A DNA stretch of 64,000 bases from Nitrospirales bacterium (GCA_031315865.1 JALDRJ010000002.1:1276001-1340000); one strand, 5' to 3'. Numbered from the stretch's first letter, positions 17,651-39,583 are shown. A program made the numbers and translations. Notes: generated from the letters alone by a model not told the origin.

Positions 17651-20017
17651 ATGATGAGTAGGGTGCACAGGAAGCTTATGGTCAAGATACGGCCACGTCA
17701 GCGCCTTCTTCTACCGCTGCTAGTTTTTGCCAGTTTATCCATCCTCGTAGTTGCATCTTCCTCCAGCCTGGCCGACTCCCGATTAAGTGCTCAGGCGATG
17801 GAAGCCGGTCAAGTGGCATTCTCAAAGGGCCACTTCGCTGAGGCGGCGCAAGCCTGGGAACGGGCAGCTCGCGAATTCGAGAACGACGGGCAATCCGATC
17901 AGCAGGCTCGTGCGCTTCTGTATTATTCTGAGGCTCTTTATTACCTGGGACACTACCGAAAAGCCGCAGGTTCGCTCGACTTAGCGCTGCAACTGGCCAG
18001 CCAATCTCACAACCAGCCGCTCCTTGCCCAGATCCTTGGACGATTAGGCAATGTGGCCTTTGCTTTAGATCTTCAACAAGATGCCGAGCGGTATCTCACG
18101 CAGGGCTTGTCTCTCGCGAGAAGCATAGAAGATTCTGCACTAGTGGCCGCGATTTTAAACGATCGCGGCAATGTCTTGGCTTCACAAGGCCTCTATAACA
18201 AAGCCCTTGGTTCATTCACCGAATCGACTATCCTGGCGGATGCGATCGGTCATCATTCTCTCGCCGTGACAGCTCTCATCAATGCCGCATGGAGCTCATT
18301 GTTCGAAGGCCAACTCACGGCGAGTAAGGATCGTCTGGATCTTGCCTCCACGCAGGTGACCCTTCTTCAAGATTCTCATGAAAAAGCTCAAGAATTGTTG
18401 AGTATCGGACTTGCTTATGATCGTCTCCGGAAATTACTTCAGTCGTCCAACGTCAAATTAACTCGTCAATCTGCCGAGGCATTTCAAAAATCAGCAGAGT
18501 TGGCTCATCGGCTTCGAGATCATCGGACAGCATCGTATGGATGGGGACATTTAGGAACGTTGTACGAAGCCGAAGGACGGTATGATGAGGCGTTGGATTT
18601 GACTCGACGAGCCATTCAGGCGGCGCAACAAGTCGCGGTTCCGGAATCCCTGTACCTGTGGGAATGGCAAACTGGCCGCTTGCTAAAAGCGCAAGGAAAG
18701 ATCGATGAGTCTATCCTGGCGTATCGTCGCGCCATCTATACGTTGCAGCCGATTCGTCGGGAAGTCACTCGTGGGTTTCATCAGCAATACGAATCATTCC
18801 GTTCCTCCATTGGTCCCCTGTTTTTTGAACTCGTCGATTTGTTGCTCACCCAAGCCGATCAGACGCGTTCAGCCCTTGAGTATCAGCGTCTTCTGGGAAA
18901 TGCCCGACGCACGATGGAGCAATTGAAGACCGCTGAGCTCCAGGACTATTTTCGTGATAATTGCGTTGCATCCTTGTTGGAAAAACGATCGAATGTCGAT
19001 GAAATCGTGAAAAATTTAAAGCATACGGCCGTCGTCTATCCGATCCTCCTGCCCGATCGAGTGGAGTTACTCGTCAGCGTCCATAATGGCGAGAAAGCCG
19101 AGTTCAAGCGGGAACGGGTGGCGGTGACGCAGCAAGAATTAGCGAAACAAGTGCGAGTCTTGCGCAGGTATTTAGAAAAGCGAACGACGCGCGAATATCT
19201 GCCCCATGCCCAACAGGTTTATTCGTGGCTTATTCAACCGATTCGCCATTATCTCGCGCAATTCGAAATTCACACGCTGGTCTTCGTGCCGGATGGACCG
19301 ATTCGAACGATCCCTCTTGGGGCCCTGCATGATGGCAAGGAATTTCTCATCGAACAGTACGCGTTAGCGATCACGCCTGGCATTGTGCTGACCGACCCAC
19401 AACCGATCAATCGTGAGACCATTAAAATGTTGTCCGTGGGGTTAACCGATTCTGTTCAAGGGTTTCCCTCCCTGCCGAACGTTGCGGAAGAAATTCAGAC
19501 ACTCACAGAACTCTACGGCGGACGGGTGCTTCTCAATCAGCAATTTCGTGTCGACGAACTTGAGTATGAAATGAAAGATGAACGACCGACGATCGTGCAT
19601 ATCGCCTCTCATGCGAAGTTCGAAGACGAGGCCAAAAATACCTTCCTCCTGGCATTCGACGGCAAGTTGACGATGGATCGATTGAATGAATTGATCGGTC
19701 TGTATCAATTCCGGGAAACGCCTTTGGACTTGTTAACGTTAAGCGCCTGCGAGACCGCTGCCGGTGATGACCGTGCGGCGCTGGGGCTGGCCGGTGTGGC
19801 GGTGAAAGCCGGCGCGCGCAGTGCGCTGGCGACGCTCTGGTTTATCAATGACAAGGCGACATCCGAGTTAATCACCGAATTCTATCGTCAATTGCAAGAT
19901 GCATCGCTTTCCAAGGCCGCGGCGTTACAGAAGGCCAAGCGGAAACTGATCAAGCATCCAACCTATCAACATCCCGGCTATTGGTCGCCATTCCTCCTGA
20001 TCAATAATTGGCTGTAA
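17651..20017 (+). CDS. TPR-CHAT protein (caspase-like protease with TPR repeats)
   Basis: 788 aa. After a basic N-terminus, a hydrophobic segment at about 20-38 suggests a signal or anchor. TPR repeats run from about 45 to 380 (e.g. AEAAQAWERAAREF, ALYYLGHYRKAAGSLDLAL). The C-terminal CHAT domain carries the caspase-like dyad: His654 in IVHIASHAKFE and Cys700 in LSACETAAGDDRAALGLAG. It ends with the typical GYWSPFLLIN. CHAT proteins are regulated peptidases or scaffolds. The CHASE2 cyclase starts 16 nt downstream, so the two are an operon. ATG 17651 is used; ATG 17654 or 17678 are possible. Confidence 0.9.
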   Translation: MMSRVHRKLMVKIRPRQRLLLPLLVFASLSILVVASSSSLADSRLSAQAMEAGQVAFSKGHFAEAAQAWERAAREFENDGQSDQQARALLYYSEALYYLGHYRKAAGSLDLALQLASQSHNQPLLAQILGRLGNVAFALDLQQDAERYLTQGLSLARSIEDSALVAAILNDRGNVLASQGLYNKALGSFTESTILADAIGHHSLAVTALINAAWSSLFEGQLTASKDRLDLASTQVTLLQDSHEKAQELLSIGLAYDRLRKLLQSSNVKLTRQSAEAFQKSAELAHRLRDHRTASYGWGHLGTLYEAEGRYDEALDLTRRAIQAAQQVAVPESLYLWEWQTGRLLKAQGKIDESILAYRRAIYTLQPIRREVTRGFHQQYESFRSSIGPLFFELVDLLLTQADQTRSALEYQRLLGNARRTMEQLKTAELQDYFRDNCVASLLEKRSNVDEIVKNLKHTAVVYPILLPDRVELLVSVHNGEKAEFKRERVAVTQQELAKQVRVLRRYLEKRTTREYLPHAQQVYSWLIQPIRHYLAQFEIHTLVFVPDGPIRTIPLGALHDGKEFLIEQYALAITPGIVLTDPQPINRETIKMLSVGLTDSVQGFPSLPNVAEEIQTLTELYGGRVLLNQQFRVDELEYEMKDERPTIVHIASHAKFEDEAKNTFLLAFDGKLTMDRLNELIGLYQFRETPLDLLTLSACETAAGDDRAALGLAGVAVKAGARSALATLWFINDKATSELITEFYRQLQDASLSKAAALQKAKRKLIKHPTYQHPGYWSPFLLINNWL

Positions 20018-20033
20018 CCGGACAGGTCTGCCC

Positions 20034-21965
20034 ATGACAGGCTTGCGTGAGCTCTTCCGTTCCACTCCGGTTCGAATGCTTCTCATCGGTCTGCTCGTGG
20101 GATTGCTCGTCGTGCTCTGTCGCGAATCGGGAATGCTGGAGCCGACGGAACTGTCGGTCTATGATTGGACGGTCAGATTCGCGTCATCTTCGGCGGTCTC
20201 AGATCCCCCCATTGTGTTGGTGACGATCACGGAAGACGATCTTCAGCGTCTTGGCTGGCCGGTGCCTGATCAGTACATCGCGAAAGCCTTGAACATGCTT
20301 GCTGGCTATGGAGCCCGGTCTATCGGACTCGATCTTTACCGGGATCGAGAAGTCTTCCCTGGGCGAGAAGCCTTACACGAGGTGTTGGTTCAACATCACA
20401 ATATCGTGGCGGTCATGAAATTTCCAGACGAGACCGGAGCCGGGATTCCGGGACCGCCAATTCTACGCGGGACGGATCAGATCGGCTTTAACGACATTAT
20501 GGTCGACCCTGGAGGCATTGTTCGCAGGGCTGTTCTCTTTTTAGAGAATGAAGAAGAAACAACGATGTCCTTCCCGTTAGCAGTCGCGCTGAAATATTTG
20601 CAAGCAGAAGGCATCGCGCCGGAAGCTGACCCGAGTCATCCCGAGTGGATGAAACTCGGCGGGACAACCATTCCACGATTTCAATCACGGGATGGCGCGT
20701 ATATGGGGATTGATTCGGGCGGCTATCAAATGCTGGTGAAATATCTGGGGGCGCAGTATGCCTTTATGCGGGTTTCTCTCGGTCGTGTGATCTCCGGAGA
20801 AGTTCAACGTGAAACGATTGAGGATAAAGTGGTCATTGTGGGATCTGCCGCAGAGAGCGTCAGAGATGATTTCTATACGCCCTTTAGCGTTGGACGGGAT
20901 GGAAATCAACAGATTCCTGGGATTGAGCTGCATGCACACCTCGTGAGCCAGTACATCCGCATGGCCTTGTATGGGGAGCCTCCCATTCGGTCGCTGTCAG
21001 AAGGAGTAGAGGCGGGCTGGATTATCATATGGGGCTGCCTCGGAGCTCTGGCAGCCCTGTGGACCGTCTCTCCGTGGAGAATTGTCCTTATACTGGGCGG
21101 CGGAGTGAGCGTTCTGACTCTGATCGCCTACTGGGCGATTCTTGGCCACTGGTGGATTCCTCTGTTGCCGCCAGCCATGAGTTGGCTGATCGCAGGAGGC
21201 ATCGCGACCGCATGGATGTCAACGCGTCATCAACGGGAGAAAGCCTGGTTGATGCGGCTATTCTCGCAGCATGTATCAAAGGAAGTGGCCGACGCCGTCT
21301 GGTCTGCAAAAGAACAGGTCCTGGAAGACGGACGAATTCGACCGCAAAAACTCATCAGTACGGTCTTTTTTGCTGATGTAGCAGGATTTTCCAGCATTGC
21401 CGAACGATTAGCTCCCTCGCCATTGATGGAGTGGTTGAACACGTATTTACGGGCGATGACTCAAGTCATCGTCTCTCATCAAGGGGTGGTCGATGATTTT
21501 TTCGGTGACGGCATCAAAGCGAATTTTGGAGTGCCAGTGCCACGCCTCACACAGGATGAAATTCGGCGGGATGCGGTGAATGCCGTGCAGGCTGGGTTGG
21601 CTTTGATCAGTGAGTTCGATCAGATTAATCAGGCACGCAAGCAGGCGGGGATTCCTGTCGGTCACGTGAGGATAGGCATCGCGACGGGACCGGTTGTGGT
21701 CGGGACTGTGGGAGGGACGGAACGGGTAAAGTACACGACCGTCGGAGACGTCGTGAATATTGCCGCCCGATTAGAGCAATATGCGAAAGAGACTCATCGT
21801 GATGACCGGCATCCCTGTCTCTATCTTTCAGAAGACACTCGACGCTTTCTTGACCAACGTTGGAACATTGAAGATTTGGGAGTTGTCCGTCTTCCTGGAA
21901 AGCACGAGCCGGTCAAGGTGTACCGGGTGCTCAACGGGTCTCAGGAGCATATCGCGTCGCCATAG
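20034..21965 (+). CDS. CHASE2-domain adenylate/guanylate cyclase
   Basis: 643 aa. An N-terminal membrane helix (MLLIGLLVGLLVVLC) is followed by an extracytoplasmic CHASE2 sensor (about 35-310; DWTVRF, IGLDLYRDRE). Three transmembrane helices (about 325-395) and a class III nucleotide cyclase domain complete it (about 440-625). Metal-binding aspartates are visible in FFADVAGFSSIAERL and FFGDGIKANFG; TTVGDVVNIAARLEQ is the late catalytic motif. Substrate choice (ATP or GTP) cannot be fixed. It probably converts an envelope signal into a cyclic nucleotide. It is coupled to the CHAT gene and converges with a sigma-54-type regulator. Confidence 0.93.
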   Translation: MTGLRELFRSTPVRMLLIGLLVGLLVVLCRESGMLEPTELSVYDWTVRFASSSAVSDPPIVLVTITEDDLQRLGWPVPDQYIAKALNMLAGYGARSIGLDLYRDREVFPGREALHEVLVQHHNIVAVMKFPDETGAGIPGPPILRGTDQIGFNDIMVDPGGIVRRAVLFLENEEETTMSFPLAVALKYLQAEGIAPEADPSHPEWMKLGGTTIPRFQSRDGAYMGIDSGGYQMLVKYLGAQYAFMRVSLGRVISGEVQRETIEDKVVIVGSAAESVRDDFYTPFSVGRDGNQQIPGIELHAHLVSQYIRMALYGEPPIRSLSEGVEAGWIIIWGCLGALAALWTVSPWRIVLILGGGVSVLTLIAYWAILGHWWIPLLPPAMSWLIAGGIATAWMSTRHQREKAWLMRLFSQHVSKEVADAVWSAKEQVLEDGRIRPQKLISTVFFADVAGFSSIAERLAPSPLMEWLNTYLRAMTQVIVSHQGVVDDFFGDGIKANFGVPVPRLTQDEIRRDAVNAVQAGLALISEFDQINQARKQAGIPVGHVRIGIATGPVVVGTVGGTERVKYTTVGDVVNIAARLEQYAKETHRDDRHPCLYLSEDTRRFLDQRWNIEDLGVVRLPGKHEPVKVYRVLNGSQEHIASP

Positions 21966-21982
21966 CCTATGAGACGGTTTAT

Positions 21983-23536
21983 TCATTCTTCTCGTCCCGA
22001 ATTCGTGAGAATGCCCAGCCGTTTCATTTTTTTGATAAGCCCCTGTCGACTGATGCCCAGCCGTTTGGCTGTCTGCACTTGATTGAAATGGCAAGCGCGT
22101 AACGCGTCGCGAATCATCTTTTCTTCGAGTTGAGCGACGGCCCGCGGAAGAGAAGATGCCAGACGACTGCCTGTCACGCGGCCTTGTGAACGAATCGTGG
22201 CATCAAGATCTGGCTCGGAAATCACGATGCGTCTCTGGGTCGCCACGATCCGCTTCATCTCGTTCTCGAGTTCTCGCACGTTGCCGGGCCAGGCGTATGT
22301 TTGCAGGAGGCGTTGGGCGTTCATCGTCAGGCGCTTTTCCTCCTTCCCGGTCCTCTGGCAATAGAGAGTCAGAAAATGAGCGGCAAGAAGAGGAATATCT
22401 TCCGGGATATCTCGTAGGGACGGGGTGTGAATATGGACGACTTTCAGTCGATAATACAAATCCTTCCGAAAGGCGCCTTTTTTGATCGAATCATCAAGCT
22501 GTTGGTTCGTTGCCGCAAGCACTCTCACGTCAAGCGTGCGATCGGTTCTTCCCCCGACGGGTTGTAATGTTCGTTCTTGGAGAACGCGTAATATTTTGGC
22601 TTGTGCATTCAGGCTCAGGTCGCCGATTTCATCAAGAAACAGCGTGCCTTCATTGGCCTGCTCGAATTTCCCACTCTTCGCCTCGACTCCCGTCGCGACG
22701 CCCCGTTGAATCCCAAACAGTTCACTTTCGACCAAAGGCTCGGGAATGGCCGCACAATTCAAGGCGACAAAGGGTTTTTGCCGTCTCATGCTGTTGTCAT
22801 GTATCGCTTTGGCCACGAGTTCTTTGCCTGTTCCACTCTCACCCGTGATCAGGACATCGACCGCGGTATCGCGAATTTGATCAATCAGTCTGACGATGCT
22901 TTGGATAGGCGGACTGACTCCGATCAGGTTTTGGGTGGCAAAGCGCCTTTCGACTTCTTTACGGAGGTGAGCATTCTCATCGATGAGATGCTGTCGTTGT
23001 TGTTTCAGTTCTTGAACGGTACGGGTCGATTCGATGCTTAACACCGCTTGTTCGGCCAGTGTGATGGCGACGGATTCATCGTGAGAAGTGAATGAACCGC
23101 CTTTTTTGTTGATGATTTCCAGCACGCCCAGAACTTCGCCTTCATGAGTCTGAAGAGGAATGGCCAACAAGTTTCGGGTTTTTTTCTTGGCCTGGAGATC
23201 GACTTCGTCATAAAACCGGGAATCATGCTGTACATCAGGCACATTTTGCACTTCTCGGTTGAGGACCGCCGCACCGGCGATTCCAAGACGGGCATCAAAG
23301 CGGATGGTTTCGCCATCGAGTGCGACGTATGACCAGAGTTCACACAGGTCCCGGTCGAGCAGTAGAAGGCTGGCGTCTTGTGCGGCCAGCAATTGTTTGG
23401 CTTCTTTCGCGATGAGCAGGAGTAAAGAGGGTAATTCCTGCTCGGTTCTCATCTTTCGACAGAGGGATAAGACCGACTGAAGCGAAGGAGTGGAGATGTC
23501 AGCGCCTGTCAGTTTGCGGTCTGTGGTGATGGACAT
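21983..23536 (-). CDS. GAF-type sigma-54 activator-like regulator with variant GAFTGA loop
   Basis: 517 aa from ATG 23536 (a TTG at 23548 is possible). A GAF sensor occupies about 25-185, an AAA+ domain about 215-445 and a Fis-type HTH about 465-510 (LRACHFNQVQTAKRLGISRQG, split for reference). Walker A is GESGTGKE and Walker B LFLDEIGDL. The sigma-54-contact loop, normally GAFTGA, reads GVATGV (nt 22685-22702). It may therefore act with altered sigma-54 coupling, or with another mechanism. The divergent DUF928 gene carries palindromes and a sigma-54-like promoter upstream, and is the natural target. Confidence 0.92.
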   Translation of the reverse strand: MSITTDRKLTGADISTPSLQSVLSLCRKMRTEQELPSLLLLIAKEAKQLLAAQDASLLLLDRDLCELWSYVALDGETIRFDARLGIAGAAVLNREVQNVPDVQHDSRFYDEVDLQAKKKTRNLLAIPLQTHEGEVLGVLEIINKKGGSFTSHDESVAITLAEQAVLSIESTRTVQELKQQRQHLIDENAHLRKEVERRFATQNLIGVSPPIQSIVRLIDQIRDTAVDVLITGESGTGKELVAKAIHDNSMRRQKPFVALNCAAIPEPLVESELFGIQRGVATGVEAKSGKFEQANEGTLFLDEIGDLSLNAQAKILRVLQERTLQPVGGRTDRTLDVRVLAATNQQLDDSIKKGAFRKDLYYRLKVVHIHTPSLRDIPEDIPLLAAHFLTLYCQRTGKEEKRLTMNAQRLLQTYAWPGNVRELENEMKRIVATQRRIVISEPDLDATIRSQGRVTGSRLASSLPRAVAQLEEKMIRDALRACHFNQVQTAKRLGISRQGLIKKMKRLGILTNSGREE

Positions 23537-23639
23537 GATAAGGATCAAGCCTTATACGTTGATTGCATGATGGCTTTGGCTACATCGCCTTTTGTTCTGT
23601 TTTTATATAACGGCAACACGAAAATCTCAGTCAACGAAT

Positions 23640-23656
23640 TGTCTACATCGTAGACA
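23640..23656. promoter_or_regulatory. Perfect palindrome TGTCTAC-N3-GTAGACA, upstream activator-site candidate
   Basis: 7-3-7 perfect inverted repeat, about 236 nt upstream of the predicted start of transcription for the DUF928 gene and about 104 nt from the regulator start codon. The size fits a dimeric Fis-type HTH site. Confidence 0.6.
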
Positions 23657-23660
23657 TATT

Positions 23661-23677
23661 TGGTCACAAAGTAAACA
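23661..23677. promoter_or_regulatory. Degenerate third copy of the palindromic site
   Basis: TGGTCAC-AAA-GTAAACA; centre is 21 nt (two helical turns) from the perfect site. It shares the AAA spacer and most right-arm bases with the 23732 site. It is weaker and may be chance. Confidence 0.3.
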
Positions 23678-23731
23678 ATACAAGAAAGTCCTGTCAAAAT
23701 CTGATGCCCATTGGTGGACTAAGAGAAACGT

Positions 23732-23748
23732 TGTCTACAAAGTGGACA
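23732..23748. promoter_or_regulatory. Near-perfect palindrome TGTCTAC-N3-GTGGACA
   Basis: Same left arm as 23640-23656, one mismatch in the right arm. Centre is 92 nt from the first site and about 144 nt upstream of the predicted transcription start, a usual distance for an enhancer-type activator site. Confidence 0.6.
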
Positions 23749-23857
23749 TGAGATCATTATATTTCATGCTAAATATTTTTTGTACTGAGGTGATGAGAAG
23801 CGGGAAGGTAAGAGTTGTCGCCGGCTTCACCGCTATATGTATGGCTTGTGCGAAGCA

Positions 23858-23872
23858 TGGCATGATCGTTGC
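23858..23872 (+). promoter_or_regulatory. Sigma-54-type promoter candidate for the DUF928 gene
   Basis: TGGCATG-ATCG-TTGC has the GG and GC doublets exactly 10 nt apart and matches the consensus TGGCACG-N4-TTGC at all but one fixed base. The predicted start is near 23884, giving a leader of about 170 nt before ATG 24053. Confidence 0.55.
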
Positions 23873-24052
23873 CTATTTAATTAAGGACCTATAAAGAATG
23901 CGATATACAAAACATCATCGTTTGCCATCTTTCCTGGAAATATGCTTCGATGAGTTGATGTGATGGCATTCGCCGTAGGGTTTACATATATGCAATGGGT
24001 TTCATAAATACATAATCTGGTGAATGGAGTATTTGACAGGAGGTCTTTCATC

Positions 24053-24937
24053 ATGACGTGTCAAAGGCATTACATCACGCTGATGGCTTTTCTTACCGGT
24101 GTCATCATTACTGTTGGATCGCACGATCCTGCATCAGCACAAATGGTGCAAGAGATCAAGGCGTATCGCCCATCGGATAGCAAGATGACGTGGTGTGGAC
24201 ATCGGTTGTTATTGAAGGACGTGACGTCTACGAAGCCCTTGAAAATGCCGGTGTATAAGCCGCCGAAGGGAATAGGCGCGCCAGGTGGACGAGTCGGAGG
24301 CGGCACTCGAGGGGGAGAGGACCCCAATATGTTGCGGTTGTTTGCCCTGGTGCCTGATCATTTAGGATTGACGATTCGGGAGCAGCCTTCTTTGTATTGG
24401 TACGTGTCGAGGAGCGCCCCTCATCGCTTGGTCTTAACCATCAATCATGAAGAGTTGGTGAAACCGGTCTTTGAACAGACCATTGCCGAAACGGTTGAAG
24501 CAGGCATTCATTCGGTAAACTTGCAAGACCTGAATGTCAGACTTGAGCTGGAAAAGGAATATCGATGGTTTGTCGAGCTAGCCCTCGATGCTGACTATCC
24601 TGCCCGCAACACGGTAGCTGGCGGACGGATCAAACGAATTGCGCCGCCAGAAACGTTATTAGCAAAACTTCGGGAAGCGGAGCGCCAAGAAGTGACGTCG
24701 ATCTATTCCGAAGGCGGGTTGTGGTATGAAGCGCTTGCTTCCATTTCGAATTTAATCGACAGGCATCCAGGCAATCCGGTCTATCCCACCTGGCGTAATT
24801 TTCTTTTTCAGCAAGTAGAATTGGACGAGATTGCTTCGGAGCAGGATATCGCTGGCGTGTTCGACGATTCCACGTTCTTGCCTGGCGAGTACGAAGAGTC
24901 GGGAATTCCGACGCTCGTTGGACATACGAGAAAGTAA
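24053..24937 (+). CDS. DUF928-domain secreted protein
   Basis: 294 aa from ATG 24053, chosen because AGGAGG is 9-10 nt upstream. A signal peptide covers residues 1-30 (ends near ASAQ). The body matches DUF928 proteins: LFALVPDHLGLTIREQPSLYWYVS is the typical opening strand set, followed by the hallmark 'L...YRWFVELALD' and 'ALASISNLIDRHPGN' parts. DUF928 proteins are secreted. From family context, they often accompany CHAT and CHASE2 proteins in cyanobacteria; that is also the case here. It is divergent from the bEBP-like regulator and probably controlled by it. Confidence 0.82.
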   Translation: MTCQRHYITLMAFLTGVIITVGSHDPASAQMVQEIKAYRPSDSKMTWCGHRLLLKDVTSTKPLKMPVYKPPKGIGAPGGRVGGGTRGGEDPNMLRLFALVPDHLGLTIREQPSLYWYVSRSAPHRLVLTINHEELVKPVFEQTIAETVEAGIHSVNLQDLNVRLELEKEYRWFVELALDADYPARNTVAGGRIKRIAPPETLLAKLREAERQEVTSIYSEGGLWYEALASISNLIDRHPGNPVYPTWRNFLFQQVELDEIASEQDIAGVFDDSTFLPGEYEESGIPTLVGHTRK

Positions 24938-25202: not shown

Positions 25203-26444
25203 ATGGCAAAACGAGTGTGTCGTATGCGTATGCCTACGAAGAACGAAAGGCTCCCCGGGAAGTGGTCAGATGACCAATTCTTGGATGGTCTGCGAATGCT
25301 AGCTGATCGCGATGCGGATCGTTGCTTTGAGCACCTTCGAGATGAATTGAAGGAGACGGATTTTTTTGACCTGTTTAAGGAATTGAACCGAAATGATTCG
25401 TTTCTCTCGGAGAATATTCCAAGGCCGTTGTCAGAGTTTTTTCATGCTTCCATGCAGGTTCCCCTTATTGACGGGGAACCCATCGACCATGACCGCATAA
25501 GGCGGGGCCAGCAGGTATTTATGACGCATGCGATGCCGACTGCGCTGGTCCTCTTGGCGAAGAGTTTGCCAGAAGGATATGCCGCACCCAGTCTGTCACG
25601 GGTGCTCAGCCTGTCCAATAATCTCACGCATCATCCATACCGCCGATTACTGGGTGTACTGCAAATGGTCATCAACGTCTCAACCGTTGGGGGGTTTACG
25701 CCTTCAGGAAAAGCTCTCATCACGGTTCCTAAAATTCGACTACTCCATTCTGGAGTACGCAAGGTTGCGAGTGAGCACCTGGCGAATTATGAACGTCAGT
25801 TTGGCGTACCGATCAATCTAGAAGATATGCTGGGAACGGTGATGGGATTCTCGTATTTAGTGATCGTGGGTCTTCAGCGATTGCAGATCGGACTGTCGGA
25901 CGGTGAAGCCGAAGACTATTTTTACCTGTGGCGTATTTTTGGGCAAATGATGGGGATCCACCCTGAAGGGCAGCCAAACAATAGTGAATATATCCCACAA
26001 AACCTGAGCGAGGCCAAAGAGTTTTACGAGTCGTACCAACGAAGGCACTATGTGAACGTCGAGGACAATCCAGAAGGGCAGCAGTTAGCCGTCGTTCACC
26101 TGAATCTTCTTCATGATTTATTGCCACAGACGCCGTTGCGGCGATTGGGAATGCAGATAGTTCCAAGGGTCTACATGGAGGAATTGATCGGGAAACAAGG
26201 CTGTGAGCGGATCGGAATTAAGCCGGTTCCGTCACTCGTTCTCACAAAATGGCTCATCAAGACCTTTCCGTACATCTGGAGTCGTCTGTGGAACGTCGTT
26301 GACCGGGTAGACCCGTCTCAACACCTGCATGAAAATATCAGCCGCCTCTTTTTTCAGGGTCTCATCAATCGGGAATTTGATGGAGAGGTCACGTTTAACA
26401 TTCCTGATACCTTAGAAGAAGTCAAGACACTGCATATCCGCTAG
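25203..26444 (+). CDS. DUF2236 / Lcp-MpaB-type haem oxygenase
   Basis: 413 aa. It belongs to the ER-bound-oxygenase MpaB / rubber oxygenase Lcp catalytic family. Recognisable parts are HAMPTALVLLAKSLPEGYA near 100, KIRLLHSGVRKV (a family His that ligates haem b in Lcp), the PINLEDMLGTVMGF motif, and EDYFYLWRIFGQMMGI. Lcp cleaves polyisoprene using O2; MpaB acts on a meroterpenoid tail. No signal peptide is evident from ATG 25203, so it may be cytosolic. It begins a plus-strand row of four oxidative-enzyme genes. The substrate is unknown. Confidence 0.82.
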   Translation: MAKRVCRMRMPTKNERLPGKWSDDQFLDGLRMLADRDADRCFEHLRDELKETDFFDLFKELNRNDSFLSENIPRPLSEFFHASMQVPLIDGEPIDHDRIRRGQQVFMTHAMPTALVLLAKSLPEGYAAPSLSRVLSLSNNLTHHPYRRLLGVLQMVINVSTVGGFTPSGKALITVPKIRLLHSGVRKVASEHLANYERQFGVPINLEDMLGTVMGFSYLVIVGLQRLQIGLSDGEAEDYFYLWRIFGQMMGIHPEGQPNNSEYIPQNLSEAKEFYESYQRRHYVNVEDNPEGQQLAVVHLNLLHDLLPQTPLRRLGMQIVPRVYMEELIGKQGCERIGIKPVPSLVLTKWLIKTFPYIWSRLWNVVDRVDPSQHLHENISRLFFQGLINREFDGEVTFNIPDTLEEVKTLHIR

Positions 26445-26548
26445 CCAATGACAGGTCTGTTCGTTCACTCACACCTCAGCGGATTAGGAGTGTGACGGAA
26501 CCTGCGTTTCAAAGAAAACCCCCTTCGAATGCGATCTTTCAGCTTGGA

Positions 26549-26566
26549 TGTATCCGTTTGGATACA
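26549..26566. promoter_or_regulatory. Palindrome TGTATCC-N4-GGATACA
   Basis: Perfect 7-bp arms, 4-nt spacer, followed by a further half-site GTATC at 26571. It lies 300 nt upstream of the RoxA-like start codon and could be an operator or activator site. It differs in sequence from the palindromes at 23640-23748. Confidence 0.45.
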
Positions 26567-26695
26567 TGGTGTATCTGAATCAGTTCATGTGATGACGGTC
26601 TTGAACCCTCTGGACAATTTTCCCATAAGGACCTACCATGCGAATGATGAGTGGCTTTAAATAGGTCCGTGAATTTCGTCAACAGATTGTATGAA

Positions 26696-26710
26696 TGGCG
26701 TATGATCTGC
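26696..26710 (+). promoter_or_regulatory. Weak sigma-54-like promoter candidate upstream of the RoxA-like gene
   Basis: TGGCGTA-TGAT-CTGC has GG and GC doublets with the required 10-nt spacing. Such a match is expected several times by chance in a window of this size, so it is only suggestive. Confidence 0.25.
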
Positions 26711-26866
26711 ACTGACCCTTTATTCGGATACGGACTTGAAGTACTCGCTAGCCGTTATGAGGAAGATGAACATTTCTATGCAGGCCTCAGTATGATTCCA
26801 CTCGACGCGTTGAATTTTCTCACACAGATATAGCATCAAGACTGTTTGCAAGGAGGCATTATCGTT

Positions 26867-29152
26867 ATGAATTCGAACACAAGGGTCATAGGGGTTTTTC
26901 TGCTCGTCGCTCTGTTGTGCCTACCCGGTTGCAGCCTGTTTCGATCGGCAGCGCAAGATGAAGCCATGCAACAGGGCAAGACGGTTGCGGATTTTCCTGA
27001 GACGGATGTTGATGTGTTTCGAGACATGGACGGCGGCATTGCTCTGACGCCCGATGAAGTGAAAGGCCGAAATACCTGGATGTTATGGACAGGAGGCAAT
27101 CAGGCATTTTGGGACTATCTCGCTAATCATAGTTATGGAAACTTGGACTTCTTGAAGATCCTTTCGTCCTATCCCAAGCCTGACAAAAATGGGAAAACGT
27201 ACTACTACAGTCGTGACAATCGATTTTCGTACTTAGGGCTGATGAACGAACCGGGTTTCCGAAAAGCCACCGTGCCGGACCCGGAGTTTGGTCTCTACCT
27301 TGATGAGCGTATCGAGGATGAGCCATTGGGGGTTGATCAAAAGATTTACGGAAAATCTTCAGGCATTGTCGGCCTGCGCTTGTTCCTCAACCCGAAATTT
27401 GACAAAACGCATTCTGACTATGATCAGGATGTCGTGAATGTCTGGGATGCCGAACGATATTATACTGACCCGGACTATTACTTGGACAAAAGCCTCGAAC
27501 GACCCTACCGGGTTGGAATGTCCTGTGCCTTTTGCCATGTCGGTCCCCATCCACTCAATCCTCCGGCGGACCCCGAAAACCCCAAATGGGAAAACCTCTC
27601 AACCAACGTAGGCGCGCAATACTTTTGGATCGGCAGAATTTTTATTGCTCACCCCGATGAAGAAAATTTTGCATGGCAATTATTCAACAGTTCGCCACCA
27701 GGAGCGTTGGATACCTCGATTATCGCGACCGACAACATCAACAATCCGCGAACGATGAATGCCATTTATGAAGTAGGGGCCAGGCTGGCCACAGGAGAAG
27801 AAGAAGACATTACCGGAGGAGCGTTGGCGGTTCCGGGAACGCAACCGCGCATGGTCGTTCCACATATTCTCAAGGGTGGGGAGGATTCGATCGGTATTCT
27901 CGGGGCGCTGAGCAGGGTCTATATCAACATTGGTGAATTTCATCAGGAATGGATTAAACATTTTAAACCCATCGTCGGCGGAAAAAAACAATCGCCAATG
28001 GATGTCGCCACGGCCAAAGAAAATTCGGTTTACTGGCAGGCGACGGAGCAGCGGGTCGAAAATCTGGCCCTGTTTTTCCTCAAAGCCGCGGGTGCGCATC
28101 GCCTAAAGGATGCACCTGGGGGAGAGGCCTATTTGACCAAGGATGAATCCGTCCTCGCGCGTGGGAAATTAGTCTTTGCCGATAATTGCGCGGCCTGTCA
28201 TTCGAGTAAGCTACCCAAGCCGCACACCACCGTAAAGCCGTATGACCGTTTCTTCAATAAGTGGGTGCAGTCGAATGACTTTAAACAAAAAATGCGCAAA
28301 ATGGTCCTGGAGCCCGATTTTCTTGACCATAACTACCTTTCGAATGAGCATCGTTATTCCGTGGCCGATCTCAAAACGAACGCCTGCGCCGCACTGGCCA
28401 CCAACGGTCTGCGCGACCATGTTTGGGATAATTTTACGTCTGAGACTTACAAGACGCTGCCCGCGGTCGGAACGATCAAAGTTCATCACCCACTCACAGG
28501 GGAAGCGTCTTCTTATGAAATGCCAGGCGGTGGTCGAGGATACTATCGTTCACCTTCACTCGTGAGTCTGTGGAGCACCGCTCCTTACCTGCATAATAAT
28601 GCCATCGGAAAGTTTACGAATGATCCATCCGTCGCGGGAAGGATGGAAGCTTTCCAAGACGGAATAGAAAAGCTCTTATGGCCTGAGAAACGATTCAAGT
28701 CAGACTGTCAGGAAAAATGGGGATTACCCTGGTGTCCGCCAATATACCGAACCACCAAAGAAAGTTACTTGAAGATTAACCAGGAATATCTCCCAGACAT
28801 TCTCAAGTTAAAGCTTTTGAAAAAGGGAGAGGAAGAACTCAGGATTGGTCCAATCCCCAAAGGCACCCCCGTGAATCTGCTCGCCAACATTAATAACGAA
28901 CTCTCTTTTGGCGATCCGGTTCGACTCGCGCGACTGGTGAAGGTGTTAATCAAAGTCAAAGCCGGACTCAAACGTATAAAAGCCGAAAACCTCAATGAAG
29001 AAGAAAGCCTTGTGCTACTCAAAGAATTGGTGCCGGACCTGCTGGAGGTCAACAAGTGTACCGACTTTATCGTGGATCGTGGTCATGAATACGGCAGTCA
29101 TTTGAGCGACGACGATAAGAATGCGCTCATTGAATTCCTGAAAACTCTATAG
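26867..29152 (+). CDS. RoxA-like dihaem cytochrome c lipoprotein
   Basis: 761 aa from ATG 26867 (AGGAGG 10 nt upstream). A lipobox (LCLPGC, Cys22) anchors it outside the cytoplasmic membrane. Two c-type haem motifs, CAFCH at 220-224 and CAACH at 441-445, lie 221 residues apart. That is close to the ~200 of rubber oxygenase RoxA/RoxB, with VGPHPLNPPADP beside the first. RoxA and dihaem cytochrome c peroxidases share a fold, so peroxidase function is the alternative. It is longer than RoxA because of a C-terminal helical extension. It lies between the Lcp-like and GMC genes, with 58 nt to the latter. Confidence 0.8.
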   Translation: MNSNTRVIGVFLLVALLCLPGCSLFRSAAQDEAMQQGKTVADFPETDVDVFRDMDGGIALTPDEVKGRNTWMLWTGGNQAFWDYLANHSYGNLDFLKILSSYPKPDKNGKTYYYSRDNRFSYLGLMNEPGFRKATVPDPEFGLYLDERIEDEPLGVDQKIYGKSSGIVGLRLFLNPKFDKTHSDYDQDVVNVWDAERYYTDPDYYLDKSLERPYRVGMSCAFCHVGPHPLNPPADPENPKWENLSTNVGAQYFWIGRIFIAHPDEENFAWQLFNSSPPGALDTSIIATDNINNPRTMNAIYEVGARLATGEEEDITGGALAVPGTQPRMVVPHILKGGEDSIGILGALSRVYINIGEFHQEWIKHFKPIVGGKKQSPMDVATAKENSVYWQATEQRVENLALFFLKAAGAHRLKDAPGGEAYLTKDESVLARGKLVFADNCAACHSSKLPKPHTTVKPYDRFFNKWVQSNDFKQKMRKMVLEPDFLDHNYLSNEHRYSVADLKTNACAALATNGLRDHVWDNFTSETYKTLPAVGTIKVHHPLTGEASSYEMPGGGRGYYRSPSLVSLWSTAPYLHNNAIGKFTNDPSVAGRMEAFQDGIEKLLWPEKRFKSDCQEKWGLPWCPPIYRTTKESYLKINQEYLPDILKLKLLKKGEEELRIGPIPKGTPVNLLANINNELSFGDPVRLARLVKVLIKVKAGLKRIKAENLNEEESLVLLKELVPDLLEVNKCTDFIVDRGHEYGSHLSDDDKNALIEFLKTL

Positions 29153-29210
29153 ATCCCAGTGCGAAAGATACGATCAAAGCCCGGCAAGCCAAAAATGAGA
29201 AGCCTCGAAC

Positions 29211-31265
29211 ATGAGCGAGCACGATAAACAATCGGAAATGCTGAACTCAGACTTGACGCGTCGGAGCTTTGGAAAGCGCTGTGCTGCCTTTATGTCCACG
29301 GTCGTGGCGTTTCTCAGTGGATGTTCGTTCTTGGGAGGGCGTGGGACCTCACAGCCGCCAAGGGCAGGGATTACCTGCGCCGACCCTGTCGGGGGAACAC
29401 AAGATTATGAGTACATCGTCGTAGGGTCGGGTGCTGGAGGCGGGCCACTTGCCGCGAATCTCGCCAAGGCCGGTCATCGGGTCTTACTCCTTGAAGCGGG
29501 TAAGGGGGGAGACGTTCCAGGGCAAGATTCGCTCATTTATCAAGTCCCGGCATTCCATGGGTTAGCTTCGGAAGAACCTTCTCAGTCTTGGGACTTCTTT
29601 GTCCGGCATTACGAATCGGAAGGGAGGCAAGCGCGTGATGACAAGTACTTCAAGGACAAGGATGGCGTCTTGTACCCTCGGGCAGGAACGCTTGGGGGCT
29701 GTACCGCTCATCATGCCATGATCACCATCTATCCGCATAAGAGTGACTGGGACGATCTGGCCACGCTCACGGGAGATGCGTCGTGGTCGGATGACAACAT
29801 GCGAAAGTATTTTGAGAGACTTGAGCGATGTCAATATGTCGATGAACCAGGAGAAGGAAATGACAATCCTACTCGTCATGGGTTCGATGGGTGGTTGACG
29901 ACTGTGACAGCCGATCCCAAGCTGGTCGTGGGAGATCGTTCTCTCAAAAAGCTCATTAAAGCGACTTTGACTGAGTCTATTTTTAACGTCAACGGGTTCA
30001 AGGGGTTTATCAGCCGGGTGAAATTGAAACTCAAAGGCCACCTCGACCCGAATGATTGGCGTTGGCGGCAAGCAGGAAAAAGTCCGGAAGGGCTCGTGTT
30101 CACGCCCCTCTCTGTGAATGAAGGCAAGCGAGTCGGGACCAGAGAATATATTCGAACCGTGCAGCAAGCCTGTCCCAACAATCTGACCGTCAAGACAGGG
30201 GCACTGGTGGCCCGAGTGCTGTTTGAGGAAGACGCTGATGGCAGGAAAAGAGCAACCGGTGTGGAATATTTGGAAGGCCCGCATCTCTATCGAGCGGACC
30301 CTCGAGTCAATCCTACCCCGAATGCGGGCATCCGAACGACCGTCCAATGCACTCGGGAAGTGATTCTGTCGGGCGGAGCTTTCAACACGCCGCAAATGTT
30401 GATGTTGTCGGGAATCGGACCAAAATCCGAGCTAGCCAAGCACGGTATCGATGTGCAGGTCGATCTCCCCGGAGTGGGTCGAAATCTTCAAGACCGGTAT
30501 GAAGTCGGAATTGTCAGTGAAATGAAGAAGGATTTTTCCATCCTTGAAGGCGGAACATTCGCCCCACCCGGTCCTGACGAGGCGCCAGACCCGATATTGC
30601 AAGATTGGAAGAAAGGCCAAGGAGTCTACACGACCAATGGCGCTGTCCTGTCGCTCATCAAGCGTTCCGACGCGAGCCGTCCGGACCCCGACCTGTTTAT
30701 CTTCGGACTGGTCGGCTATTTTCGAGGGTATTACCCGGGGTACTCCAAAGATGCAGCCATGAATAAAAATTACTTTACGTGGGCGGTACTCAAAGCCCAC
30801 ACGCAGAACCGGGGTGGCGTAGTGAGGCTGCGTTCGAACGACCCGAGGGACACCCCCGACATTAATTTTCGCTATTTTGACGAAGGTACCGCGGGGTGGG
30901 AAGAAGACCTGGATTCGGTCGTGGACGGTATCAAGACTGCGCGACGGATTATGCAACGGGCGGACAGTGTCGTGGAAAGAGAGTTGATTCCCGGGCCTGA
31001 GCATGACAACGACGAACGCCTCCGGCAATTCGTGAAAGACAACGCCTGGGGCCATCATGCTTCATGTACATGCAAAATTGGGCCAACAGATGATCCAATG
31101 GCCGTCGTGGATGGCAATTTCCGGGTCCATGGCACGGCGAATTTGCGGGTGGTCGATGCCTCGGTGTTTCCCAGAATTCCTGGGTTTTTTATCGTGACTT
31201 CGGTGTATATGATCAGTGAAAAAGCCACTGACGTCATTCTTGAAGAGGCGAAGCATGCCACATGA
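29211..31265 (+). CDS. GMC-family flavoprotein oxidoreductase with Tat/lipoprotein signal
   Basis: 684 aa. The N-terminus has a twin-arginine motif (TRRSFGKR) and LSGCS, suggesting folded export and lipid anchoring. The FAD-binding motif VVGSGAGGGPLAANL starts at about 67, followed by LLLEAG; GTLGGCTAHHAMI is the GMC signature. The C-terminal active-site region has WGHHASCTCKIG and a final IPGFFIVTSVYMISEKA helix. GMC enzymes oxidise alcohols, aldehydes or sterols. Placed between a RoxA-like cytochrome and a catalase-like protein, it may oxidise their products and pass electrons or peroxide to them. Substrate not predictable. Confidence 0.92.
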   Translation: MSEHDKQSEMLNSDLTRRSFGKRCAAFMSTVVAFLSGCSFLGGRGTSQPPRAGITCADPVGGTQDYEYIVVGSGAGGGPLAANLAKAGHRVLLLEAGKGGDVPGQDSLIYQVPAFHGLASEEPSQSWDFFVRHYESEGRQARDDKYFKDKDGVLYPRAGTLGGCTAHHAMITIYPHKSDWDDLATLTGDASWSDDNMRKYFERLERCQYVDEPGEGNDNPTRHGFDGWLTTVTADPKLVVGDRSLKKLIKATLTESIFNVNGFKGFISRVKLKLKGHLDPNDWRWRQAGKSPEGLVFTPLSVNEGKRVGTREYIRTVQQACPNNLTVKTGALVARVLFEEDADGRKRATGVEYLEGPHLYRADPRVNPTPNAGIRTTVQCTREVILSGGAFNTPQMLMLSGIGPKSELAKHGIDVQVDLPGVGRNLQDRYEVGIVSEMKKDFSILEGGTFAPPGPDEAPDPILQDWKKGQGVYTTNGAVLSLIKRSDASRPDPDLFIFGLVGYFRGYYPGYSKDAAMNKNYFTWAVLKAHTQNRGGVVRLRSNDPRDTPDINFRYFDEGTAGWEEDLDSVVDGIKTARRIMQRADSVVERELIPGPEHDNDERLRQFVKDNAWGHHASCTCKIGPTDDPMAVVDGNFRVHGTANLRVVDASVFPRIPGFFIVTSVYMISEKATDVILEEAKHAT

Positions 31266-31314
31266 AACGGAAGAGATAAAGATAGGTGGCGAATCATCCA
31301 GGGAGATAGACAGT

Positions 31315-32442
31315 ATGAAGACCTTGATTCATAAGGCAAGACAATACGTGTTTTGGACGATGGCTATTGGTCTTGCCCTTCTTGTCATCGGAGGGTGTGC
31401 ACACCGGACTGGACTCAAGTTAGGGCAAGAACAGGAACCGCCCGACGAAAAACAAACTATTGAGAATATTAAAAGCTTGCTGTCTACTCAACTAGCCAAG
31501 CAGTATGAAGGCAAAGAGTTTCTGCGCGATACGCATCCCAAGTCCAATGGCTGTGTCAAAGCCCGGTTTATCGTCGATCCGGAGATTCCTGAGAAGTTTC
31601 AAGTCGGAGTGTTTGAGAAAGGTCATTCCTACCCGGCATGGCTGAGGTTTTCCAATTCAGCCCCGGAAGTCACTCCGGACCAAGACCAAGACTTTCGCGG
31701 GTTGGCCATCAAGCTGTTTGATGTAAAAGGTGAACGACTCCCGATTCCCGGTGATGAACAACACACGCAGGATTTTCTCTTTATCGCTTTTCCCGGTTTT
31801 TTTGCCGGAACCCCGAAGGATTTTTTCGAGTTCTTTGATGGAGAGTTTAACGGCGGCCCTCTGGCGACCAAGGCTTACTTTGCGAAGCGGCCGCGGGCTC
31901 TCAGAAATACCCTCAAAGGACGGAAACAATTCGCCAACCCGTTAGAGATTACGTGGTTTAGTGTGGCGCCCTTTCAACTCGGGGCTCCAAACCCCGACGG
32001 TTCCGCGCTGGCCGTGAAATACAAGGTGAAGTCTTGCATCGAGCGGCAAAGTCCGCTTCCAGACCAGCCATCAGATGACTATCTTGAAGAAGCCATGGCC
32101 AGGGATTTAGCCCGAGGCGACTGGTGCTTGGAATTCCTGATTCAAGTCCAACAGGATCCCGATACAATGCCCGTCGAGGATACGCTGGCCGTATGGGATG
32201 AGGAAAAAGCGCCGTTCACGAAAGTGGCGACTATTCAAATTCCCCGGCAAACGTTTACCTCTGATGCGCAGAAACTCTTCTGCGAAGACCTTTCCTTTAA
32301 TCCCTGGCATGGGCTTACGGTACATAAGCCACTGGGGGGCATTAATCGCGCGCGCCGCGATGAAATGAAAGCCATTTCCGACCTTCGCCTCAAACAGCGG
32401 GGCGTGACCCGCACAGAACCCACCGGACTTGAAACATTTTGA
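31315..32442 (+). CDS. Catalase-like haem lipoprotein (y4iL/allene-oxide-synthase-like)
   Basis: 375 aa from ATG 31315 (GGGAG upstream). A lipobox (IGGC, Cys24) indicates an exported lipoprotein. The catalase-like core shows DTHPKSNGCVKARF (distal-His region), WLRFSNSAP and DFRGLAIKLFDV. A C-terminal SFNPWHGLTVHKPLGGINRAR motif follows; it is typical of small catalase-like proteins and lacks the classical proximal-Tyr motif. Members of this group are related to allene oxide synthase domains acting on fatty-acid hydroperoxides. It starts 49 nt after the GMC stop, so it is in the same operon. Confidence 0.85.
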   Translation: MKTLIHKARQYVFWTMAIGLALLVIGGCAHRTGLKLGQEQEPPDEKQTIENIKSLLSTQLAKQYEGKEFLRDTHPKSNGCVKARFIVDPEIPEKFQVGVFEKGHSYPAWLRFSNSAPEVTPDQDQDFRGLAIKLFDVKGERLPIPGDEQHTQDFLFIAFPGFFAGTPKDFFEFFDGEFNGGPLATKAYFAKRPRALRNTLKGRKQFANPLEITWFSVAPFQLGAPNPDGSALAVKYKVKSCIERQSPLPDQPSDDYLEEAMARDLARGDWCLEFLIQVQQDPDTMPVEDTLAVWDEEKAPFTKVATIQIPRQTFTSDAQKLFCEDLSFNPWHGLTVHKPLGGINRARRDEMKAISDLRLKQRGVTRTEPTGLETF

Positions 32443-37327: not shown

Positions 37328-39334
37328 TTATACCAATTCAGGGTCTGATATGATTTCAACCAATGCTGGTCCCTCGAAAGCGATGGCTTCCTTGATGGCC
37401 TCATCAAGTTGGTCAAGCGAGGTAACACGTCGTCCATGTCCCCCGCAGAGCTTGGCGTACTCCGCAAAGTTGGGATTATGAAGAGAGGTTTGCCACACGG
37501 TCCATTCACCGGCCCGTTGCTCCTTAGTAATTTTTCCAAGCTGACTGTTATTCAATAAAATATGCGTGATATCCATCCCATACTTCACTGCGGTCGTAAA
37601 CTCGGCCAAATATTGACCAAATCCGCCATCGCCGCTGACAGAGATCACTTTACGCCCCCGATGCTCTTCCCAGTCTTGCGTGGCCGCCCAAGCTCCCATC
37701 GCCGCCGGAAAGGCAAAGCCGATCGACCCGAGATATCCCGACATTAAGACACGTTGTTCGCTACATTCAAAATAGCGTCCGAATGAATACGTGTTATTGC
37801 CAACATCCACGGCGATGACGGCATCCGAAGGAGCCATTCGGGAAAGCGCGGCAAATATCGAGGCAGAATTCATACCCTGATTTCGATCATCTTGCGTGCG
37901 GCTCTTCTTTTCTTCACGCCACATCTTCCAACGCTCGGTGAGCTCAGGCCTTTGATCGGTCGCGGGTAAGGTTTCCGGGAGTCTTGACAGGATTTGCCTT
38001 GCCGTCACACCAATCTCTCCCCAGACTGGAACTGTGACGGGATGGAATTTCCCAAGCGCCATCGCTTCAAAATCAACCTGGATGATGGGTTTGGATGGCT
38101 CAATGCCGGTATGATTAGAAAAAGAGGAGCCGAACGCCAAAATGATGTCGCATTCGTTCATAAACCAACTGGCGATCGGCGTTCCCGATCGGCCAAGTAC
38201 GCCTGCAGCAAGCGGATGTGAGTCTGGAATCAGCCCTTTCCCTTTAAAAGTTGTGAGAACGGGCGCATGCAATCGTTCTGCAAGGGCGATAATGTCCGGC
38301 ATGGAATCCCGTGCCCCATATCCCACGATAATAATGGGGCGAGCGGCCTTTGACAAAAGTGTCACGGACTCGCTGAGCGAATCTTCGGAGGGAGCAATAT
38401 CAGTGACCGGCAGGCGGCCGGCAGGTTTGGAGATTTTGACATCTTCGGCCGCTGGAATGGTTTGCACATTGTCAGGAAAAATAAGATGGGCCACATCACG
38501 CTGCACTATCGCATTTTTACAAGCCAACGCCATCAATTCAGAATGTTTTGAAGAATGCAGGACCGTATGGCTGAAGCGAGCAACAGCTTGAAACGCAGAG
38601 GCCAGATCGATTTCCTGAAAAGCGCCAGGCCCTAACACCTGCACATCGACTTGACCCGTGAGCGCCAATACTGGGGCGCGATCGACTTTTGCGTCCCACA
38701 GGCCAGTTATGAGATTTGTTGCCCCCGGTCCCGCGATAGACAAACAGGCTGCTGGATGCCCACTGAGCTTGGCATAGCCGGAGCAGGCGAACGCCGCCGC
38801 TCCCTCATGGCGAATGCCGATATAGGTCAGGTTGCCCTTGGTTTCCTGTACACGCAACGCGTCGGCCAGGCCAAGGTTGGAATGCCCGACCATCCCGAAC
38901 ACGCGCTTTATCCCCCATTTCACCATCGTTTCCGCCATGACGTCACTTATGGTTCGCTGATGCTCCGGTATGTGAGGAAGTCCGACATAAATCGCTCCAT
39001 CACGAACTTCGACCGGAAAAAGCTCCTGACCACTATCCTCATGACCTCCAGGAGGTTTTCCCGTCAACGGGTCAAAGTCCCATCCATGCCAAGGACAACG
39101 TAGCCAACATTTTCCGTCGACCCCCGTTTCGATCGATCCCTCACCGAGAGGGCCGCCTTGATGGGGACACCGATTGTCCATGGCGGTGAATGTCCCTTGA
39201 AAATGCACCAGCGCAAGAGATTTGGTTCCCGCAGTCACAGTCTTGACCCTGCCATCAGGTAAATCATGTAAGCTGCCGACCTGATGCCATTCTATTTTGT
39301 CTGGATTTTGCGATCTGTTAACCTCACCGGACAT
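37328..39334 (-). CDS. Rieske-ThDP fusion enzyme (pyruvate oxidase/acetolactate synthase-like)
   Basis: 668 aa. Residues ~15-120 are a Rieske [2Fe-2S] domain with CPHQGGPL (Cys56, His58) and CPWHGWDF (Cys80, His83). From ~128 it is a full three-domain thiamine-diphosphate enzyme. Glu177 in IRHEGAAAFACSGYAKL activates ThDP, a central domain follows (PIIIVGYGARD), and a C-terminal Mg-ThDP motif SGDGGFGQ...LNN completes it. This kind of enzyme decarboxylates a 2-oxo acid. An attached Rieske cluster could feed electrons out, as in ferredoxin-coupled oxidation. Divergent from a second Rieske fusion. Substrate unknown. Confidence 0.92.
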   Translation of the reverse strand: MSGEVNRSQNPDKIEWHQVGSLHDLPDGRVKTVTAGTKSLALVHFQGTFTAMDNRCPHQGGPLGEGSIETGVDGKCWLRCPWHGWDFDPLTGKPPGGHEDSGQELFPVEVRDGAIYVGLPHIPEHQRTISDVMAETMVKWGIKRVFGMVGHSNLGLADALRVQETKGNLTYIGIRHEGAAAFACSGYAKLSGHPAACLSIAGPGATNLITGLWDAKVDRAPVLALTGQVDVQVLGPGAFQEIDLASAFQAVARFSHTVLHSSKHSELMALACKNAIVQRDVAHLIFPDNVQTIPAAEDVKISKPAGRLPVTDIAPSEDSLSESVTLLSKAARPIIIVGYGARDSMPDIIALAERLHAPVLTTFKGKGLIPDSHPLAAGVLGRSGTPIASWFMNECDIILAFGSSFSNHTGIEPSKPIIQVDFEAMALGKFHPVTVPVWGEIGVTARQILSRLPETLPATDQRPELTERWKMWREEKKSRTQDDRNQGMNSASIFAALSRMAPSDAVIAVDVGNNTYSFGRYFECSEQRVLMSGYLGSIGFAFPAAMGAWAATQDWEEHRGRKVISVSGDGGFGQYLAEFTTAVKYGMDITHILLNNSQLGKITKEQRAGEWTVWQTSLHNPNFAEYAKLCGGHGRRVTSLDQLDEAIKEAIAFEGPALVEIISDPELV

Positions 39335-39583
39335 TGTTCTACCCTTTCTTGGCCGTTAGAAATTTACAGACAACCGTCGGAGCGAGTTTCGTTATAATAC
39401 TGGGCGAACGTATGGGCTGCAATTCTAAACGTCAGAATGACAGATATTAAACGGGATTCGAATTTATGTATCGTTCTTGTAGATCAATCCATGTTACACA
39501 TTCAAGACCGTTTGTGTAGAAATTATCCAAATTAAAAAGCTCATGAATTTTCAAGATCGAAAAATTCAGGAGGGAGAGTGAAC
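39335..39583. promoter_or_regulatory. Divergent promoter region of the two Rieske-fusion genes
   Basis: AT-rich 249-nt gap serving both genes. AGGAGGGAG at 39568-39576 is the ribosome-binding site for the plus-strand gene, GAAAGGGT the one for the minus-strand gene. No certain -35/-10 pair could be assigned. Confidence 0.45.

Follow-up and report, generated by a model that had tools for sequence, protein, structure and literature searches.

What chemistry is encoded by four neighbouring plus-strand genes in a Nitrospirales genome, and does it concern rubber? The genes lie in a 64,000-nt stretch of DNA, the whole of which is here called the window (Nitrospirales bacterium, GCA_031315865.1 JALDRJ010000002.1:1276001-1340000; cluster at 25203-32442), and the host is a nitrite-oxidising-type bacterium with a Nitrospirales-like genome. 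An earlier note had read the genes as a DUF2236/Lcp-MpaB-like enzyme, a RoxA-like dihaem lipoprotein, a twin-arginine GMC flavoprotein and a catalase-like lipoprotein, which together would form an envelope chain built around two paired rubber-oxygenase folds. We arrive at a different reading, to which we give a probability of roughly one half: the unit would be a periplasmic, membrane-anchored lipid oxidation module, with fatty acyl chains as its putative substrate.

Gene organization

All four ORFs are present where they had been reported (Table 1), and two of them probably start downstream of the listed position. The dihaem ORF, listed as 26846-29152 from a TTG at 26846, has a likelier start at the ATG at 26867, preceded by the ribosome-binding site (RBS) AAGGAGG; the catalase-like ORF, listed as 31216-32442, has a likelier start at the ATG at 31315, preceded by the RBS AGGGAG. 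The gap between the DUF2236 and dihaem genes is 422 bp, whereas those between the dihaem and GMC genes and between the GMC and catalase-like genes are 58 bp and about 49 bp, respectively, so that genes 2-4 look like one unit from which the DUF2236 gene is set apart. Thus, of the four-gene cluster proposed earlier, the operon-like part is genes 2-4, and the dihaem, GMC and catalase-like genes are probably co-transcribed as a three-gene unit in this lineage. Scans for sigma-54 and sigma-70 sites near the unit, including 26445-26866, returned no site clearly exceeding chance. Lipobox-like cysteines in the dihaem, GMC and catalase-like proteins, with no visible signal in the DUF2236 protein, agree with the claim that three of the four are lipid-anchored, as predicted from their sequences.

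Table 1. Coordinates of the cluster features, counted from the first nucleotide of the window
Feature	Position	Strand	Basis or remark
DUF2236 (Lcp/MpaB) haem protein, 413 aa	25203..26444	+	PF09995; unit membership uncertain
Intergenic region, 422 bp	26445..26866		Between DUF2236 gene and three-gene unit
Dihaem c-type lipoprotein, probable MauG/CCP superfamily, core gene 1	26867..29152	+	Haem motifs, fold, RBS
Haem-attachment motif 1, CAFCH (His231)	27524..27538	+	
Haem-attachment motif 2, CAACH (His452)	28187..28201	+	
His747, candidate distal ligand of haem 2	29084..29086	+	Invariant 51/51; aligns with RoxA C-terminal GH motif
GMC flavoprotein, core gene 2	29211..31265	+	Both Pfam GMC domains; N terminus Tat-type and lipobox-like
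Catalase-fold (y4iL/cAOS-type) lipoprotein	31315..32442	+	Profile and fold matches to cAOS

Two other features of the window deserve mention. Upstream, at 17651-24937, are genes for a CHAT-TPR protein, a CHASE2 adenylate cyclase, a GAF/sigma-54 activator and a DUF928 protein, conserved at the NPIRA02 and OFTM51 loci. A fusion of Rieske and thiamine-pyrophosphate enzyme domains (37328-39334, minus strand) neighbours a second Rieske fusion, to a glutamate-synthase FMN domain (39578-41191, plus strand).

The dihaem protein

The two CxxCH motifs are at residues 227-231 and 448-452, exactly the 221 residues apart that had been reported, and both are invariant in 51 homologues. His747 is equally invariant and aligns with the NGGHDF segment of RoxA (4b2n alignment). 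The protein shares with RoxA, RoxB and RoxC the two CxxCH motifs, a short C-terminal motif WATAPYxHN and a GH...LIEFLKTL end; it differs elsewhere in sequence, and only the short C-terminal motifs align with 4b2n. The active haem of RoxA is associated with Phe317 and Trp302. Trp369 of the window protein is invariant among its homologues, which does not imply equivalence to RoxA Trp302, given that the alignment with 4b2n is confined to the C-terminal motifs.

Profile searches assigned a cytochrome c domain (Pfam), with the RoxA-like family PF21419 at 21.6 bits, under its cut-off of 26.7. The NCBIfam rubber-oxygenase models scored 14.9 (RoxA), 22.8 (RoxB) and 23.0 bits (RoxC) against cut-offs of 900-1000. 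With all scores below cut-off, membership in RoxA, RoxB or RoxC was rejected. The AlphaFold2 model (pLDDT 82.9) aligned with MauG over residues 66-768 (VIA Z 9.4-9.6, about 260-270 residues aligned, rmsd about 4.3); Foldseek returned no match at E <= 0.001, its own E value being 0.035. The chains that the fold search aligned with the model do not include RoxA 4b2n, which is no evidence against kinship to RoxA. Judging from this model, the protein most likely belongs, as a large member, to the MauG/bacterial cytochrome c peroxidase (CCP) superfamily, with which it has the fold core in common and from which it differs in being twice the size, in its large insertions and in its pairing with a GMC protein. 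Its kinship to RoxA is remote: in the description "RoxA-like dihaem lipoprotein", the two haem motifs, the C-terminal His and a lipobox-like Cys stand, and the membership in RoxA does not. Separate genes for RoxA-like cytochromes are found near the dihaem gene on Rhizobium plasmids and in other genomes.

By analogy, the nearest functional precedent appears to be PA2077/PA2078 (FadCcp), the oleate diol synthase pair of P. aeruginosa, which are dihaem Ccp relatives of RoxA (PMC4496055). PA2077, an oleate 10S-dioxygenase located in the periplasm, converts oleate to its 10-hydroperoxide and depends on both haems (PMC4496055). Likened by published description rather than by sequence, these proteins and the window protein are periplasmic dihaem c-type members of the Ccp superfamily with a C-terminal His ligand, PA2077/PA2078 acting on fatty acids (PMC4496055). 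They differ in length (624-634 aa vs. 761 aa here) and in CxxCH spacing (245/235 vs. 221 residues), and PA2077/PA2078 have no reported GMC or catalase-like partner (PMC4496055).

Conservation of the dihaem-GMC pair

We surveyed the neighbourhoods of dihaem relatives in a scan of species genomes, which yielded 404 relatives. The best 80 were taken with flanks and combined with a locus of a related Nitrospirales genome (G187) and four Rhizobium/Sinorhizobium/Mesorhizobium plasmids, giving 85 loci, 51 of which have full flanks (>=5 kb on each side). Among the best 80, the closest named relatives come from Nitrospirales bacterium NPIRA02, OFTM51 and NPIRA04 (82-86% identity). Within this set of the best 80 plus five loci, a GMC gene is near the dihaem gene in 72/85 loci, or 47/51 when flanks are full, and it lies directly downstream on the same strand in 48 of the 85. 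The pair is seen in Nitrospirota, Acidobacteriota, Myxococcota/deltaproteobacteria and Alpha-, Beta- and Gammaproteobacteria. Pairwise distances of the two proteins are correlated across 35 adjacent pairs (r = 0.43, P = 0.001), the correlation over all 58 dihaem-GMC loci being only 0.23 (P = 0.005 after trimming). In 198 Nitrospirota genomes, a close dihaem homologue and a full-length GMC are confined to the same two genomes, with a GMC fragment alone in a third.

This conserved pairing is our strongest result, and the dihaem lipoprotein and the GMC flavoprotein are the core of the cluster and probably its functional unit. A literature search, which reached few subscription papers, found no description of a dihaem-GMC(-patatin-catalase) cluster.

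The GMC flavoprotein

The GMC gene matches both GMC domains (PF00732, GMC_oxred_N, 74.2 bits; PF05199, GMC_oxred_C, 109.4 bits), and the N terminus of its product has an RR motif and, after it, LSGC, which bears out the description as a twin-arginine GMC flavoprotein. It is the sole GMC gene in the host genome (3.78 Mb). Of the catalytic His plus His/Asn pair of GMC oxidases, only the first is kept across the clade: His616 is present in 56/56 partner GMCs, and the second catalytic residue, Asn in 8b7s, falls on Phe660, which is Phe in 55/55 proteins covering the site. The alignment therefore indicates that this subfamily departs from the canonical His/Asn and His/His GMC oxidases, and the invariant loss of the second residue suggests an enzyme specialised for its partnership and not an alcohol oxidase of the general kind.

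This loss bears on the main rival to the lipid oxidation module, a plain dehydrogenase: a periplasmic GMC would oxidise a small alcohol, sugar or polyol, with the dihaem cytochrome as a mere electron acceptor to the respiratory chain and the catalase-like protein in a protective role. Pairing of a GMC protein with a cytochrome c is a common dehydrogenase arrangement, and in our loci the GMC and dihaem genes are constant while phospholipases and peroxidases vary. Such an enzyme does not, however, account for the invariant Phe, for a dihaem protein far larger than electron-transfer cytochromes and with a MauG/CCP enzyme fold, or for the recurrence of lipid- and peroxide-acting neighbours (below), and we consider it rather unlikely.

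In the comparison of the window with loci L026-L105, the Nitrospirales GMCs have an RR motif and a lipobox, and most partner GMCs of other phyla begin near the FAD motif without a signal. Because the dihaem partner must be periplasmic, the mostly missing export signal in the other phyla poses a compartment puzzle and counts against the lipid oxidation module.

Lipid- and peroxide-acting neighbours

Within the 51 full-flank loci, a patatin-type phospholipase is near the pair in 19, a catalase-like protein in 19, a Dyp-type peroxidase-like protein in 18, a RoxA-like cytochrome in 12, an old yellow enzyme (OYE) in five, and an animal-haem-peroxidase family protein and a Tle1-like phospholipase in three each. 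Two orphan families accompany it as well, one of 433 aa (18/51) and one of 151 aa (26/51). The orphan families, exemplified by L065:4317-5618 and L085:18274-18729, respectively, have no Pfam match; they and a divergent Dyp-type peroxidase (L093:16037-17542) are recurrent neighbours of the pair in Acidobacteria and Alphaproteobacteria.

Beside the pair in the related Nitrospirales genome G187, an An_peroxidase gene (L019:10495-13677) matches plant fatty-acid alpha-dioxygenase (E = 3.6e-58), and homologues 53-55% identical to its product adjoin the pair at L034 and L038. No such homologue is present in the window cluster, which has no adjoining phospholipase or dioxygenase, a point against the lipid reading. 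On pNGR234a, a catalase-like gene is grouped with a patatin and a dihaem protein other than this one, and several plasmid-borne catalase-like genes adjoin "peroxidase" genes while others do not. The recurrence of lipid- and peroxide-acting neighbours favours a lipid, probably fatty-acyl, substrate.

We also looked for such enzymes elsewhere in the host genome. A patatin and a Tle1-like gene at L114:6491-11480 (C2, about 2.134-2.140 Mb) lie about 830 kb from the cluster; they are adjacent to each other and related to the phospholipases of dihaem-GMC clusters in other bacteria. The host has two An_peroxidases, neither near the cluster and neither clearly alike to alpha-dioxygenase (one 24% identical over 274 aa, the other with nothing significant). 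At L113:9294-11021 is a full-length animal-haem-peroxidase homologue (552 bits). A lipoxygenase search gave no match in the host genome or in the control genomes, and so says nothing on absence.

The catalase-fold lipoprotein

Pfam Catalase was sub-threshold on the fourth gene (17.5 vs. a cut-off of 25). A family profile had coral allene oxide synthase (cAOS, 1u5u) as its best match (5e-8), before true catalases, and cAOS came first in both fold rankings of the model (Z 25.6-26.2), with catalases within about 2 Z units. Together with a lipobox-like Cys, these matches confirm a catalase-like lipoprotein, best matched by y4iL-type "catalase family protein" and cAOS; the top rank of cAOS gives a lead but does not prove that the protein works as an AOS. 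Aligned with cAOS (1u5u/3dy5; residue assignments from PMC5617202), Arg104, Thr106-His107 and Arg144 correspond to R64, T66-H67 and R102, whereas, by sequence alignment only, the proximal Tyr353 column holds Met384 and the distal Asn137 column appears to hold Ala191. The proximal Tyr is kept in 16 members from other phyla, and in a Nostoc HK-01 homologue the His and the Tyr are both retained, together with an Asn; among the sequences examined, Met384 and Ala191 are combined only in the window protein and in NPIRA02. With the expected proximal Tyr lost, an active AOS step is uncertain, and the alignment makes catalytic competence in this lineage doubtful.

The same residue weighs on a second alternative, an oxidative-stress unit in which a MauG/CCP-like peroxidase and the catalase-fold protein clear H2O2 or lipid peroxides at the envelope with electrons fed by the GMC protein. 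The CCP fold, the catalase fold and the Dyp-type peroxidase neighbours are what such a unit would contain. Its catalase-like component is without the expected proximal Tyr, however, and the partners of the pair include phospholipases and, at three loci, alpha-dioxygenase, which are makers rather than removers of lipid peroxides. We regard the stress unit as unlikely, more so than the plain dehydrogenase.

The DUF2236 protein

That this gene encodes a DUF2236/Lcp-MpaB-like enzyme holds at the level of fold (PF09995, MPAB_Lcp_cat, 57.6 bits, cut-off 23; best PDB match LcpK30 5o1l, E = 9e-10), and by sequence the protein is a real, albeit distant, Lcp relative. In the 5o1l alignment, His182, Arg148, Arg179 and Arg186 correspond to the haem-ligand His198, Arg164, Arg195 and Arg202 of LcpK30, whereas Glu148, Lys167 and Thr168 are replaced by Leu131, Gly151 and Val152. 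Of the Lcp active-site residues Glu148, Arg164 and Thr168 (Lys167 being variable), Arg164 alone is kept. The roles of these residues in LcpK30 have been described (PMC5522427): Lys167 is only 59% conserved in Lcps, the Thr168Ala mutein has about 2% activity and Glu148 muteins have 2-20% (PMC5522427). Read by eye, the N terminus, MAKRVCRMRMPTKNERLPGKW, has no visible hydrophobic segment.

Just three of the loci examined, the syntenic Nitrospirales loci of the window, L026 and L027, have a DUF2236 gene close to the pair, and only one other of the 198 Nitrospirota genomes has even weak homologues. Because the CHAT, CHASE2-cyclase, DUF928 and sigma-54 genes are also common to these three loci, the adjacency may be inherited synteny. 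Comparative evidence gives no support to membership of the DUF2236 protein in the pathway; unlike the dihaem-GMC pair, it is not a conserved partner.

Read as a rubber or isoprenoid pathway, the earlier proposal would have oxygenases of the Lcp and RoxA types cleave a polyisoprene or another isoprenoid, with GMC and AOS-like steps to follow. The kept Arg164, Arg195, His198 and Arg202 equivalents and the adjacency in three loci fit it. The three replaced residues, the lack of a visible export signal and the absence of conserved co-occurrence all oppose it, as do the NCBIfam scores, which place the dihaem protein outside the RoxA/RoxB/RoxC models; the DUF2236 protein is in the right fold but has no lasting tie to the pair. 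The pairing of two rubber-oxygenase folds thus falls away, with one partner MauG/CCP-like and the other devoid of three LcpK30 residues, and we judge the isoprenoid chain highly improbable. An envelope oxidation chain as such stays plausible for lipids, through the conserved pair and its lipid- and peroxide-acting neighbours; membrane lipids are a likelier substrate of the cluster than rubber.

A candidate lipid oxidation module

How might the lipid oxidation module work? The fold, the neighbours and the PA2077 precedent would together suggest a substrate, a direction of electron flow and a product. The substrate would most likely be a fatty acyl chain, or an alcohol or (hydro)peroxide derived from one. 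The N-terminal haem, without an obvious distal His, would bind O2 or peroxide and oxygenate or peroxidise the acyl chain, and the C-terminal haem (His452, probably with His747) would shuttle electrons. Oxidation of the alcohol or aldehyde so formed would fall to the GMC protein, whose electrons may go to the dihaem partner. For the catalase-fold protein, a role in hydroperoxide binding or processing is possible, though its catalysis may be impaired here.

We suggest, tentatively and as a possibility with the odds against it, that an undescribed bacterial oxylipin-type pathway, shared across phyla, is built around the pair and has interchangeable modules: a phospholipase, an alpha-dioxygenase or dihaem oxygenase, a catalase-related hydroperoxide enzyme, an OYE reductase, a Dyp-like peroxidase and the two orphan proteins. 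This parts list resembles the plant octadecanoid route. To our knowledge, few bacterial oxylipin systems have been characterised. If the suggestion is true, it would define a set of genes, spread over several major groups of bacteria, through which bacterial lipid oxygenation can be tested, together with an unusual GMC subfamily without the second catalytic residue, and would point to an unrecognised lipid chemistry at the envelope of Nitrospirales.
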